64,000 nt of DNA from NCBI GenBank assembly GCA_017544265.1, contig JAFYEM010000008.1:19606-83605 (forward strand), written 5' to 3'. Positions 43,914 to 60,760 of the stretch are shown piece after piece; position 1 is the stretch's first letter; each line of letters opens with the position of its first letter. The stretch is from Bacteroidales bacterium (lineage in GTDB: Bacteria; Bacteroidota; Bacteroidia; Bacteroidales; UBA932). The notes beneath the pieces were generated by a model. It was not told the origin of the DNA and did no database searches. It saw nothing but the letters and a program-made list of their open reading frames with translations. The translations under genes and the position numbers were made by a program.

Positions 43914-44389
43914 TCAAGAAATACATAATTCTGTTCCTCATATCGATGGTTCCGCTTATCGAGCTTCGCGGGGCCATACCATACGCGGTTGCAGTGGACC
44001 TTCCGCTGATTCCTTCCTATATCATTTCCATTCTCGGGAACATGGTCCCGGTGCCGCTGATTTACATCTTCGGCCGACGTTTCCTGAGCTGGGGCAAGGA
44101 CAAGAAGGTGGTCGGGGGCTTCTGCCGATGGTGCCTCGCAAAGGGTGAGAAGGCCAGCGAAAAACTTCAGTCGAAGGCCGGCAGGGGTCTCTATGTGGCC
44201 CTGCTGCTGTTTGTCGGAATTCCGCTCCCCGGCACCGGCGCATGGACCGGCACCCTCGCCGCCAGCCTTCTGAATATGGGATTCCGGAAAAGCGTGGCCG
44301 TGGTGCTGGCAGGAGTCGTACTGGCCGGATGCATAATGCTCGCGGCCTCGCTCGGCGTTTTCGGCGCAATAAACATTTTCAAACCATGA
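43910..44389 (+). CDS. Small multidrug export-like membrane protein
   Basis: A 159-residue protein of the Sm_multidrug_ex family (COG2426). Hydrophobic segments are at about 5-25, 32-52, 95-115 and 128-150. [13 protein letters not shown] near the N terminus and [16 protein letters not shown] near 102-117 are the conserved motifs, with a helix-breaking Pro-Gly run. The substrate is not known and the family name is historical. It overlaps the DUF6913-like gene and cysS by ATGA. Confidence 0.85.
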
Positions 44390-45972
44390 GACCTCTTTAT
44401 CTTACAAATACCCTAACGCGGACAAAGGAACTCTTCACACCCATCAACCCCGGCCACGTGGGCATGTACGTCTGCGGACCGACTGTCTATGGGGACGCAC
44501 ACCTCGGCCACGCCCGCCCGGGAGTGACATACGATGTTCTTTTCCGCCTTCTCAAGCATCTGGGCTACAAGGTCCGCTATGTGCGCAACATCACCGACGT
44601 AGGGCATCTGGAGCATGACGCGGACGAGGGCGAGGACAAGATTGCGAAGAAGGCCAGGCTCGAAGAGCTGGAGCCCATGGAGGTGGTCCAGACCTATACG
44701 GAGCGCTATCACGAGGCCATGCGGGCGCTGAACGTGGAATCTCCGTCCATAGAGCCGCGCGCCTCGGGCCATATTATCGAGCAGATCGAGGCCATAAAGA
44801 AGATTCTTGCCGCGGGCTATGCCTATATCAGCAACGGCAGCGTCTATTTCGACGTGGAGAAATACAACCGTGATTTCCATTACGGGGTGCTTTCGGGCCG
44901 CAGTCTGGACGACACTCTGGAGGGTACGCGCAATCTGGACGGTCAGGGCGACAAAAAGGCTCCGTATGATTTTGCGCTTTGGAAAAAGGCTGAACCGGAG
45001 CATATCATGCGCTGGCCTTCTCCCTGGGGTGAGGGCTTTCCGGGCTGGCATCTGGAATGCTCGGTCATGGGGGAGAAATACCTCGGCCATGAGTTTGACA
45101 TCCATGGCGGGGGCATGGACCTCATGTTTCCCCATCATGAGTGTGAGATAGCGCAGAATCAGGCTTCCAGGGGTACCCAGGGGGTGCATTACTGGGTGCA
45201 CAACAATATGATTACAATCAACGGTCAGAAGATGGGGAAGTCGCTGGGGAATTTCATTACTCTTCCGCAGCTTTTCGCCGGGGATCACCCCAAGCTTGAG
45301 CGTGCCTACAGCCCTATGGCTGTGCGCTTTTTCATTCTTCAGGCCCATTATCGTTCCACTCTTGACTTTTCCAACGAGGCTCTGACTGCTGCCGAAAAGG
45401 GTTACCGCCGCCTGATGCAGGCCGCCCGCGACCTCGGCGCTTCCGCCGCCCCTGCGGCTGCCGACAGGGCCGTGTCGGCTTTAAAGAGTGTCGATGCCGA
45501 CTTAACCCTGTCGGCACCCGACTCCGCCCCCCTGTCCTCTCGAGCGGACCATTCCTCTGTCATTTCGAGCGGAGGCCCGGAGGGCCGTAGTCGAGAAATC
45601 TCCTCCCTCGCGGACTCCGTCTGGGAGGCGCTGTGCGACGACCTTAACACCCCTGTCGCCATCGCAAAACTCTTCGACGCAGTGAAACTTGTCAATGGCG
45701 GAGGGCTCACTGCGGCGGACCGGGAGGCTCTCAAGGAACTCTTCAGTGAAGTGGTCTTCGGCGTACTCGGTCTCCGGGATGAGAATGCCGGAGGGGGCAC
45801 CGACAAGGCGGAAAAGGCGCTTTCGGGAGCTATGGACCTGGTGCTGGAATCGCGCCGCAAGGCCCGTGAGGCGAAGGACTGGGCGGAAAGTGACAGGATA
45901 CGTGACATTCTCGCCTCTGTGGGAATCACTGTAAAAGACACCAAGGAAGGTCCTGTCTGGAACCTTGAATAG
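44386..45972 (+). CDS. cysS: Cysteinyl-tRNA synthetase with repeat-encoded insertion
   Basis: Charges tRNA-Cys. It is 528 residues, about 50-65 more than usual. C30 (zinc ligand) and HLGH at 39-42 (HIGH motif), [17 protein letters not shown] with zinc ligands, and KMGKS near 282 are intact. At about residues 355-408, between the KMGKS half and the anticodon-binding helices ([18 protein letters not shown]), lies an insertion rich in Ala, Ser, Asp and Pro. Its DNA is made of a structured repeat (45459-45516) and a GTCATTTCGAG-type repeat (45559-45602), read in frame. The start overlaps the exporter stop (ATGA). Confidence 0.93.
45459..45516 (+). repeat. Nested-hairpin repeat inside cysS
   Basis: Outer stem TGCCGACAGGG / CCCTGTCGGCA (perfect 11 bp), then CC opposite AA, an inner stem with GTCGGC / GCCGAC, and a 16-base loop TTTAAAGAGTGTCGAT. 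The same layout and a like loop occur at 46753-46811, 46829-46882, 48334-48387, 48407-48460 and twice in 60652-60760. Here it adds codons in frame. Confidence 0.85.
45559..45602. repeat. GTCATTTCGAG-type palindromic repeat in cysS
   Basis: GTCATTTCGAGC and GTCGAGAAATCTC enclose GGCCCGGAGGGCC. It is of the same type as 52559-52593, in the opposite orientation. It encodes a Ser/Gly/Arg-rich stretch of CysS. Confidence 0.75.
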
Positions 45973-46740: not shown

Positions 46741-46885
46741 TCCTCCGCCGCCAGCTGGCATGGCCCCGTCGGCTTAATAGTGTGTCTATGCCCCCCGGAA
46801 CCCTGTCAGCTGCCGTCGTCCTCCGCGTCGGTGACGCCCCGTGGGGCTGTTCAGGGGGTCTATGCCCCCCGGAACGTCACCGCCG
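46741..46885 (+). repeat. Structured repeat pair, copy A
   Basis: Two nested hairpins in a row: 46753-46811 (outer AGCTGGCATGG / CCCTGTCAGCT) and 46829-46882 (outer CGGTGACG / CGTCACCG). Each has CC opposite AA, an inner stem and a 16-base loop that ends TCTAT. Bases 46741-46885 are a direct repeat of 48320-48463 at high identity. From 46886 to about 46990 more imperfect hairpins follow (GCCGTC/GACGGC, GCGG/CCGC, GGTCAGGA/TCCTGGCC). I see no gene in 46733-47065. Confidence 0.85.
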
Positions 46886-47065
46886 TCGTTGTTGACGGCA
46901 ACGGTCAGGAGCGGAGCAAGCCGCTTTATCGAGCTCGGCGGAGCGTCCTGGCCGTAGCTGCCGCGCATCGTTCCCGCGCGGCTGCGGTGCCTCATGTCAA
47001 GAATCCAAAATTATTGCCTAAACGTAAATTGAAGAATTCGTACGACATACGAAAACACGTAAAAA

Positions 47066-47094
47066 TTGATTAAAACACATATTTTTTTAATCAA
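47066..47094. other. AT-rich 10-bp hairpin upstream of the Rpn gene
   Basis: TTGATTAAAA (47066-47075) and TTTTAATCAA (47085-47094) pair perfectly with a 9-base loop. The surrounding 240 bases are much more AT-rich than the genome background. It could be a terminator remnant or the edge of an inserted segment. Nothing else is visible between here and the Rpn start. Confidence 0.5.
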
Positions 47095-47233
47095 AACATA
47101 TATTTCTGCAGTTCGTTGGGCAAAGTCATTGGTTTTTCAGAAACTATTTGCATACTATTGCTGTCGGCTTCCGTTGTGGGAGCTGGCGCGGGAGATAGTT
47201 CCGGCGTCAATGTTTCACAAAAAAGAAAAGATT

Positions 47234-48238
47234 ATGCAGAAGAATGAAAACGCATTGACACCGGAGCAGTTGCGGGAGTACAGGGGAATCGTGGACGAGA
47301 TGGAGAAACTCCGTACACTGACTCTCGAGGAGAAGGAGAACATGATTACGGCGATTATGTCGCGTCCATTCATGGACCTGACGTGCGACTGGGCGTTCAA
47401 GCACCTGATGTCCCGGCCGGAGAACCTCCGTTTGCTGCTGAACGACATCCTTCCGGAGGAGGTAGGTGAGATAGAGTATGACCCGAACGAGCTTATCCGG
47501 ATGAGCCCTGAAGACAAGAACGTGATAATGGATGTTCTGTGCCATTCGAAGGAAGATCCGTCTCGGACATTCATCGTGGAGATGCAGCGTCAGGACAAGA
47601 CTGCGTTCAAGAACAGGATGTTCTATTACGGTGCGGCACATATCCGGAATCAGCTGTCGGGTAGCGAGTCATATCACCTTCTTCATCCGGTGTATATCAT
47701 CTGCCTGATGAATTTCACGACAATCCACCAGGCGGACAAGCTGGTGTATGTGTACCAGATGCGCGAGAAGGAGAGCGGAGAGTTGTACGGGAATCTGCTG
47801 TCGATATACATGTGCGAGCTGCCTCGGATAAAGAAAAACAGGTTGTCGGAGATGAGTTCGTTGGAGCAAACATTGTTTATAATCAGAAATATTCATATCT
47901 TCGCGTCAGTTCCGGAGGACCTGGACCCTCGCTACACGCAGTGGTTCAAGGACGCACGGACGATAGAGTTGCAGACCAGGGAGAAACAACAATACTTGAG
48001 AGCGATGCTTACAGACTACGAAAAGAACGACATAGCCACGGCGTACCTTGAGCGCGGCCGCATCGAGGGACGCGAGGAAGGCCGCGAGGAAGGGAGAGCT
48101 GAAGGCAGGGCGCAAGGTGAGATCGAGGGCAGGAAAGCAGTTGCCAGAGGCCTTCTTGAACTGGGTGTTGATATTCGATTGATATCTGCCAGTTCCGGTC
48201 TTTCGGAGGAAGAGTTAAAGGACCTGATTAAAAACTGA
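47234..48238 (+). CDS. Rpn family recombination-promoting nuclease / putative transposase
   Basis: A 334-residue PD-(D/E)XK nuclease of the Rpn/Transposase_31 group. Members cut DNA and promote RecA-independent recombination and some are thought to be defence or mobility genes. RPFMDLTCDWAFKHLM is the N-terminal signature, and the catalytic set is DVLCHSKEDP followed by FIVEMQRQDK (Asp then Glu-x-Gln, near 95-117). The C terminus has the typical EGREEGREEGRAEGRAQG charged repeats. I start at the ATG at 47234 after an A-rich stretch; the ATG at 47210 is possible. It is flanked by direct copies of the structured repeat. Confidence 0.85.
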   Translation: MQKNENALTPEQLREYRGIVDEMEKLRTLTLEEKENMITAIMSRPFMDLTCDWAFKHLMSRPENLRLLLNDILPEEVGEIEYDPNELIRMSPEDKNVIMDVLCHSKEDPSRTFIVEMQRQDKTAFKNRMFYYGAAHIRNQLSGSESYHLLHPVYIICLMNFTTIHQADKLVYVYQMREKESGELYGNLLSIYMCELPRIKKNRLSEMSSLEQTLFIIRNIHIFASVPEDLDPRYTQWFKDARTIELQTREKQQYLRAMLTDYEKNDIATAYLERGRIEGREEGREEGRAEGRAQGEIEGRKAVARGLLELGVDIRLISASSGLSEEELKDLIKN

Positions 48239-48282
48239 GTTCTGGCTAAAATAGCTGGGACTTACTATTTGTTCAAATTCTT

Positions 48283-48308
48283 AAGGAGAGTTTCGGCTCT
48301 TTTTTTTT
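48283..48308 (+). terminator. Terminator after the Rpn gene
   Basis: AAGGAGAG-TTTCGG-CTCT followed by a run of T: a short stem with a tetraloop-like centre and a U-run, 44 bases after the Rpn stop codon. Confidence 0.6.
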
Positions 48309-48319
48309 ATTTCTGCCCT

Positions 48320-48463
48320 TCCTCCGCCGTCATCTGACAGGGCCCCGGCGGCTTAATAGGGGGGCGATGCCGCCGGAACCCTGCCAGCTGCCGTCGTCTT
48401 CCGCGTCGGTGACGCCCCGTGGGGCTGTTCAGGGGGTCTATGCCCCCCGGAACGTCACCGCCG
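48320..48463 (+). repeat. Structured repeat pair, copy B
   Basis: Direct repeat of 46741-46885 on the other side of the Rpn gene. The first hairpin (48334-48387) has outer CTGACAGGG / CCCTGCCAG, perfect inner CCGGCGGC / GCCGCCGG and loop TTAATAGGGGGGCGAT. The second (48407-48460) is the same as in copy A, with outer CGGTGACG / CGTCACCG. Between 48239 and 48718 there is no gene, only the terminator, this repeat, the 62-bp tandem pair and the next terminator. Confidence 0.85.
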
Positions 48464-48488
48464 CTTCCGCGCCCTCTACCGAAAAATC

Positions 48489-48596
48489 ACCTTGAGTAAA
48501 AAACGCCGATAGAGATGCCTCTACCACTTAAGGTCAGACAATTTTGCGTCACCTTGAGTGCTGGACAGCCCTCCAGTGCAGATTTCCACTTAAGAT
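48489..48596. repeat. Two tandem palindromic units, period 62 bp
   Basis: ACCTTGAGT at 48489-48497 and 48551-48559, with ACTTAAGGT at 48526-48534 and ACTTAAGAT at 48588-48596. In each unit the two ends are inverted to each other with one or two mismatches. Both arms repeat with a period of exactly 62 bases, while the centres differ (AGAGATGCCTCT and CTGGACAGCCCTCCAG, each itself a hairpin). Confidence 0.7.
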
Positions 48597-48667
48597 AAAT
48601 TTTCAGGTAGCTGCCCCGCATCGCAAACGCACGGGGGAATATGGTGGAGTAACGGGGTTGGTGAAAT

Positions 48668-60584: not shown

Positions 60585-60760
60585 TCGGTGACGCCCCGCT
60601 TCGCATCTGTTTCCGCACAGGTGACGCCATGCTTCTTTACCGTTTCCGCGCCGGTGACGCCCCGAGGGGCTTTTCAGAGGGTCTATGCCCCACGGAACCC
60701 TGCCAGCTGACGGCGTCCCCGGCGGCTTAATAGTGTGTCGATGCCGTTGGCAACGGCCGT
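60585..60760 (+). repeat. Structured repeat cluster, copy C (rearranged)
   Basis: Three GGTGACGCC segments at 60588, 60620 and 60653 or nearby, then a hairpin at 60652-60706 with the inner stem CCGAGGGGC / GCCCCACGG, 16-base loop and AA, but with the left outer arm of one version (CGGTGACG) and the right outer arm of the other (CCCTGCCAG). A second core, 60719-60750, has inner CCGGCGGC / GCCGTTGG. No gene is present in 60555-60803. Confidence 0.78.

Follow-up and report, generated by a model that had tools for sequence, protein, structure and literature searches.

The locus analysed here raises the question of what kind of element a hairpin is whose arms differ from copy to copy yet stay complementary: a structured RNA kept by selection for folding, or a piece of DNA that moves. 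The first-pass annotation of the window, that is, of the whole 64,000-nucleotide stretch, had described seven copies of such a hairpin and left both options standing. All seven are present, each as an exact match to the loop-core pattern and each on the + strand, and with up to three mismatches the pattern is matched 17 times in the window, against a mean of 4.2 in shuffled sequence. The unit is a 66-nt palindrome composed of a 25-nt arm, a 16-nt loop with the consensus T nnnn AG nGnGn C K AT, and a second 25-nt arm. Five copies come close to full length, with R1 model scores of 51.6-78.2 bits, whereas the two near 60.7 kb are incomplete, one being a chimera and the other a truncation. Counted without gaps, the seven copies have, in order, 20, 9, 19, 20, 19, 13 and 13 Watson-Crick pairs out of 25, the value of 9 at 46749 resulting from a one-base shift; random positions of the window give a mean of 6.3 pairs, and 70 of 200,000 such positions reach 15.

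The first copy, E0 (45455..45520, +), has an arm type of its own and the loop TTTAAAGAGTGTCGAT, with 69.2 bits (R1) and 20 of 25 pairs. Type A arms are found at 46749..46815 (+; 67 nt with a one-base asymmetry, 51.6 bits) and at 48328..48393 (+; 78.2 bits, 20 of 25 pairs), and type B arms at 46823..46888 (+; 70.6 bits, 19 of 25 pairs) and at 48401..48466 (+; 72.5 bits), the latter being a repeat of 46792-46885 at 97% identity. The copy at 46749-46815 is also 91% identical over 82 nt to a copy at locus L089, upstream of the genome's second rpn-like gene. The chimera (60659..60698, +; 36.0 bits, model positions 14-53) joins a type B 5' arm to a type A 3' arm, so its outer arms do not pair, and the truncated copy (60714..60755, +; 31.7 bits, model positions 13-54) has no outer stem. 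The arms thus do vary, as had been proposed, but the five intact copies represent three arm types and not five.

The element is not confined to the window. In the genome to which the window belongs (G000, a 1.87-Mb draft of 65 contigs), the loop core is matched 57 times at no more than one mismatch, on both strands, and the reversed pattern is not matched at all. Because the 45 exact matches divide into 20 forward and 25 reverse, the single orientation seen in the window does not extend to the genome. The own-genome analyses below cover 55 of the 57 matches, with C63:10686 and C65:12989 left out. In the genus, model R1 finds matches in at least 22 of 400 genomes, own included, a lower bound in that at most 13 candidates were scored per genome. 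When 13 chosen genomes were scored more fully, G324 gave 21 matches and G497 gave 15 (a few of them counted on both strands), and G406, G338, G260 and G201 gave none. Across 393 order-level genomes, model R2 finds matches only in the own genome and in G791, whose doubtful hairpin has no more of the loop in common than its CGATGCC end. Exact loop matches occur in 8 of 199 family genomes and 16 of 400 genus genomes (own included); when the relatives' exact-loop loci were folded, six were true hairpins (L060, L063, L064, L066, L067 and L072) and the rest looked like chance. Among GTDB contigs there are 16 exact loop matches, about 15 being expected by chance by our own arithmetic, and none has long arms on folding. 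In IMG/VR phage contigs one loop pattern is not matched and the other is matched 26 times, mostly in the core only, with a best model score of 22.6 bits. The family is nearly restricted to the genus. At Rfam gathering thresholds the window has no match, and a literature search, with few subscription papers covered, returned no report of such elements in Bacteroidales. The finding is strengthened on each point on which it might have failed, since further copies exist, their arms covary (see below) and no known family was matched. In G336 (L133, L148) and G503 (L140) a hairpin copy forms part of a longer repeat of about 235 nt, which occurs two times in the former and once in the latter.

At least 27 copies of this genome are located within 14 genes without interrupting the open frame, 19 of them in sense and 8 in antisense orientation, and 25 of these 27 share one codon phase. 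Genic copies that were inspected lie mostly in linkers. The genes encode a glycosyltransferase (two copies), a DUF1573 protein (two), AtpG (one), AtpB (two), phosphomannose isomerase (three), an M20 peptidase (two), a YfhO-like protein that falls below the Pfam cut-off (three), MiaA (two), CysS (one), DnaX (two), an ABC ATPase read as LptB (one), an MMPL-like protein (two), RsmE (two) and RsmF (two); copies ahead of RpiB (L037) were excluded because they may precede the true start. In the shared phase (offset 2), 32 of the 55 own copies are free of stops in the sense and 16 in the antisense orientation, and for the relatives' 36 copies the numbers are 30 and 31.

Complementarity of the arms is clear also in copies that were not chosen for it. 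In the 55 own copies, unselected for pairing, it persists as far as base pair 25, beyond which it is close to background, and outside the closing GGC/GCC it exceeds that of a cross-copy control. Alignment A2, made of 37 copies (33 own and four from relatives) taken from the 46 of 61 records with at least 18 of 25 standard pairs, has 85.2% of its cells paired, against 58.6% when shuffled and at most 48.2% when slid; this value is inflated because the copies were chosen for pairing, and the 55-copy count serves as the unselected check. Changes on both sides are found in A2 at 22 of the 25 pairs. Alignment A4 holds 36 copies from relatives, all found with a structure-aware model, out of 50 matches listed (12 that were not exactly 66 nt and 2 near-duplicates were dropped). 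Here 93.4% of cells are paired, there are 312 double-change cells, and single-side changes are rare. The relatives' arms are near-perfect and mostly unlike between copies, while the inner stem CCGGRGGC and the loop TAAAAAGAnnGCCGAT are conserved. Distances separate the two parts: between paralogues of G324 (6 copies) and G497 (7 copies) the loop differs by 0.15 and 0.22 and the outer 15 bp by 0.51 and 0.63, respectively, whereas in orthologues, for which the values rest on three pairs, the loop differs by 0.13, 0.06 and 0.19 and the outer part by 0.13, 0.07 and 0.29. The loop tracks the family and the outer arms mostly track the locus. The two arm types A and B have dispersed through this genome together with their arms.

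The mismatches that remain in the stems are biased by strand. On the listed strand, G·T is found at the level expected from composition (11.3% versus 12.4% of non-Watson-Crick cells in the 55 own copies, 15.7% versus 15.3% in the relatives' 36), whereas A·C makes up 31.2% versus an expected 14.1% in the own copies and 50.0% versus 17.0% in the relatives. Read on the opposite strand, each A·C becomes a G·T or G·U wobble, which means that the complementary strand pairs with wobbles and folds better; it does so in 47 of 55 own and 23 of 36 relatives' copies. In direct counts A·C exceeds G·T by 35 to 11 in the relatives and by 88 to 19 among the 43 own copies that have 15 pairs or more, where members of an arm type do not count as independent, or by 45 to 18 without columns 16-17. 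These two columns are the site of the CC opposite AA that had been seen as part of a fixed plan. On the complementary strand this is TT opposite GG, i.e., two wobble pairs that leave the stem continuous, and it is a feature of this genome's commonest arm types; among the relatives, most arms are free of mismatches or contain one or two. The bias is weaker for unshared mismatches inside this genome's three big arm clusters (27 A·C versus 15 G·T). In the relatives, 20 of the 35 A·C cells fall in A4 columns 7-11, 15-19 bp from the loop, where 7 would be expected, and this clustering despite differing arms suggests a positional feature. Taken with the better folding, the strand-biased mismatches suggest that a single strand of the complementary polarity is the form in which the hairpin is selected or tolerated. 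A candidate reading as a palindrome at the DNA level only had rested on a count of G·U on one strand, where it is not enriched, and was overturned by the A·C excess. The strand bias fits RNA or single-stranded DNA alike. The distribution in both orientations and inside genes is better accommodated by a strand-specific DNA hairpin than by RNA, so that on balance the bias favours a strand-specific single-stranded hairpin, of single-stranded DNA and less likely of RNA. The proposed selection for folding holds in part, in that the mismatches are biased as expected if the complementary strand must pair when single-stranded, but the predominance of paired changes could be produced by template switching alone.

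A view of how such copies arise and change is given by the linker of CysS (cysteinyl-tRNA synthetase; ORF 44242..45972, +; tRNA-synt_1e E 2e-105, DALR_2, CysS_C), in which E0 lies in frame. CysS was found by search in 208 of 220 genus genomes, and 73 of the linkers were read. The same loop type is present in this linker in G517, G265 and G546, the G517 and G546 arms differing by paired changes and the G517 and G265 arms by two unpaired single changes. In all, at least nine of the 73 linkers contain this loop, two of them inverted (G330, G407). The loop of G331 is in the opposite orientation to that of G330 with similar arms, and G337 and G336 have identical inner arms around loops of different families. 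Other linkers are occupied by a family with a 28-nt loop (G355, G226, G235, G336, G269, G277) or by CGTC-REP-like repeats (G406, G260). Different hairpins at one site in sister species, together with the 57 dispersed loop cores, bear out the earlier proposal that the sequence is not random and is mobile. The 28-nt-loop family (ATTTGCCCGTACAGGGTCGCGAAGCGAC), which also has variable arms, was observed in the same protein linkers at L176, L192, L194, L257 and others. Just after E0 and within the same linker, at 45558-45602 of the window, lies a TGTCATTTCGAG...GAGAAATCTC repeat that looks like the CGTC-tagged REP type reported from Bacteroidetes and is similar to the repeats of G406 and G260.

Linker lengths bear on the origin of the arms. 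When the loop and one arm are subtracted, filled cysS linkers have a mean of 75.7 nt, empty ones 76.0 nt, and subtraction of two arms leaves 47.9 nt, so that the net insertion corresponds to the loop plus one arm and one arm looks native. This comparison uses 14 filled and 12 empty of the 73 rows, with 47 left out (the 41-50 aa linker type, other hairpin families, and truncated or multiple hairpins, among them own L025); a script set the arm limits, which reach too far in L171 and L122 and stop short in L190, and p-values are only indicative because the rows share ancestry. Counted from the downstream anchor, filled cysS genes remain as similar to empty ones as the empty ones are to each other, as far as into the 3' arm. 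The lengths at a second linker, whose gene was read as coding for an RNA methyltransferase, point in the same direction (98.8 when filled versus 81, 93 and 117 when empty; six filled, and three empty of unequal length). G265 has an intergenic hairpin with an atypical loop (34.3 bits), all of which is additional when the site is compared with G338 and G546; the arms of this hairpin match G517 at five other places. Two copies of G337 have arms that are mostly common but differ at their outer ends. With respect to a MITE, which is defined by terminal inverted repeats with a target-site duplication, inverted repeats are present, and empty-site comparisons gave no clear target-site duplication, the neighbours having diverged or been refilled.

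The explanation that we prefer, with about even confidence, is that of a selfish mobile palindrome of approximately 66 nt, akin to the Rickettsia palindromic elements discussed below, that acts as a single-stranded hairpin and whose arms are kept complementary largely by template switching during replication. In this model the 16-nt loop and the inner stem would be the best inherited part, the outer arms being largely locus-specific, and the element would land between genes or, in frame, in tolerant linkers of genes. What is recognised or moved would be the hairpin formed, when single-stranded, by the complement of the listed strand (T-rich loop), and on this complement the A-C mismatches are wobble pairs. 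Template switching between the arms would then rewrite one arm as the complement of the other, which would produce paired changes, flips of the loop, and growth of the palindrome over local sequence to about 25 bp. The model builds directly on the dispersed copies, the in-frame genic copies, the covariation of the arms and the strand-biased mismatches, and on the paired changes and loop inversion observed at orthologous sites, in few pairs; that template switching is the main maintainer, that recognition is of a single strand and that the element is selfish are its probable but less direct parts. Template switching is described as homogenising arms and inverting spacers (PMC8604942) and as making or repairing perfect stems through paired changes (PMC8794818). 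Paired changes, loop inversion and outward growth into codons are all consistent with it; alone it does not predict the strand bias, and the two unpaired single changes in the G265/G517 cysS pair count against it. Locus-specific arms could also mean that the arms are made from the target. If only the loop core moved and a folded-back strand copied about 25 nt of the target at insertion, one arm would belong to the gene itself and the other would be an inverted copy of that arm, as the lengths of both linkers and the similarity that reaches into the 3' arm would have it. This account is rather unlikely as a whole, since the G265 intergenic hairpin is wholly extra and its arms match elsewhere, the two G337 copies have mostly common arms, types A and B have spread arms included, and the insertion in MiaA, set beside family alignments, presumably comprises both arms and more. 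It is likewise doubtful that these hairpins represent a previously undescribed class of selfish DNA, with a short loop core as the sole inherited part, arms fold-back-copied from each target, and essential genes entered unbroken. A putative structured RNA transcribed from the complementary strand and kept by selection for folding, with mobility or duplication secondary, would also explain the arm covariation, the better folding of that strand and the A-C excess on the listed strand as a G-U excess on the complementary one, although the last is expected of a single-stranded DNA hairpin too. We regard such an RNA, one of the options of the first-pass annotation, as improbable, given the lack of an Rfam match in the window, the occurrence in both orientations inside and outside genes, the 19 of 27 genic copies that place the less stable strand in the mRNA, the inversion of the loop at orthologous sites and the rarity of single-side changes beside 312 double-change cells. 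attC sites, terminators and DGR hairpins were considered as well.

What would move such a palindrome was sought among two kinds of gene. An rpn-like PD-(D/E)XK nuclease gene (47234..48238, +; PF12784 E 3.7e-32) lies between the two A-B hairpin pairs of the window, an association only. At each of this genome's two rpn-like loci a type-A hairpin precedes the gene and hairpin sequence follows it, which speaks for mobilisation by this nuclease. The idea is nevertheless highly improbable, because 30 rpn-like loci of the genus, searched with models R1 and R2, have no hairpins (best 15.4 bits), although both own loci, used as positive controls, are detected at 51-78 bits with R1, and because the gene is present in 84 of 121 genus genomes. 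At L089 (C10:126500-130500) the second rpn-like gene is in two open frames with a hairpin 3' arm at the stop codon, and a 131-nt repeat (48472-48602 in the window, 86% identical) adjoins hairpins at both own loci. The other possibility is a REP/REPIN-type element moved by a RAYT, a Y1 HUH transposase that acts in a strand-specific manner on single-stranded hairpins. The strand bias of the mismatches and the presence of RAYT-like genes in the own genome and in relatives agree with it, and RAYTs of the Bacteroidetes subclass 2.6 are described as having atypical flanking structures of which copies occur elsewhere (PMC6006769). Yet the RAYT-like genes of the own genome (L048, below the Pfam cut-off) and of G331 have other hairpins, that of G497 has a copy nearby without being flanked by copies on both sides, and stem and loop lengths are unlike those of described REPs, which makes this origin doubtful as well. 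All RAYT-like genes examined (L048/L090, L298, L299, L300) are framed by other hairpins or by none, and among the rpn-like and RAYT-like candidates examined no mobilising gene was found, a point against the preferred explanation. The gene at L048/L090 (C4:103.6 kb) is a RAYT-like Y1 transposase ORF of 294 aa with its own hairpins, which have a TCGAAAAAT-type loop.

If the selfish-palindrome explanation is right, palindromes of this kind colonise housekeeping genes (e.g., those of CysS, ATP synthase, DnaX and MiaA) of free uncultured bacteria, and an inherited loop has become separated from locus-specific arms. How coding palindromes originate can be tested directly at the cysS linker, which is differently filled in sister species. 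These hairpins are also a warning for RNA-motif discovery, as processes at the DNA level can yield very strong covariation, and G·U and A·C must be counted strand by strand before one strand, if either, can be called selected.

The hairpin looks like a gene-colonising selfish DNA repeat and unlike a known RNA, and several known systems offer a comparison. Rickettsia palindromic elements (RPEs) are short palindromic repeats, grouped in families, that lie in frame in many unrelated metabolic genes (PMC10969869, PMC3733652), and the 27 copies in 14 genes reported here are likewise in-frame palindromes in unrelated protein genes. As far as the published descriptions allow the comparison, RPEs are about 150 bp long with a conserved peptide (PMC10969869), would have arms that are conserved in each family, and are said to lose repeat identity with time (PMC6649704), whereas the present element has 66 nt and arms that vary by locus yet stay paired, with only the loop core conserved. 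The mitochondria of hairworms (Nematomorpha) contain perfect inverted repeats in working genes, gained and lost between species and thought to be maintained by repeat conversion or template switching (PMC6649704). In that account both arms encode conserved protein regions and a shared loop family is not part of the description, while here a loop family is dispersed and the inspected genic copies are mostly in linkers. By analogy, the element may work like RPEs and may maintain its arms like the coding palindromes of hairworms. REPs and REPINs are high-copy palindromes, some of them in genes, and described REP stems have 6-13 bp (GTAG) or 8-9 bp (CGTC), short loops and a terminal tag (PMC3733652); here the stem has 25 bp and the loop 16 nt, and there is no constant terminal tag, some own-genome copies starting with CGTC and the relatives having no common tag. 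Quasipalindrome template-switch mutation resembles the present case in its paired changes, arm homogenisation and spacer inversion (PMC8604942, PMC8794818), but it is a mutational process and alone spreads no loop family to new loci. Palindromes inside genes are thus known from other organisms, and what looks different here is that the loop is shared among copies while the arms change together.
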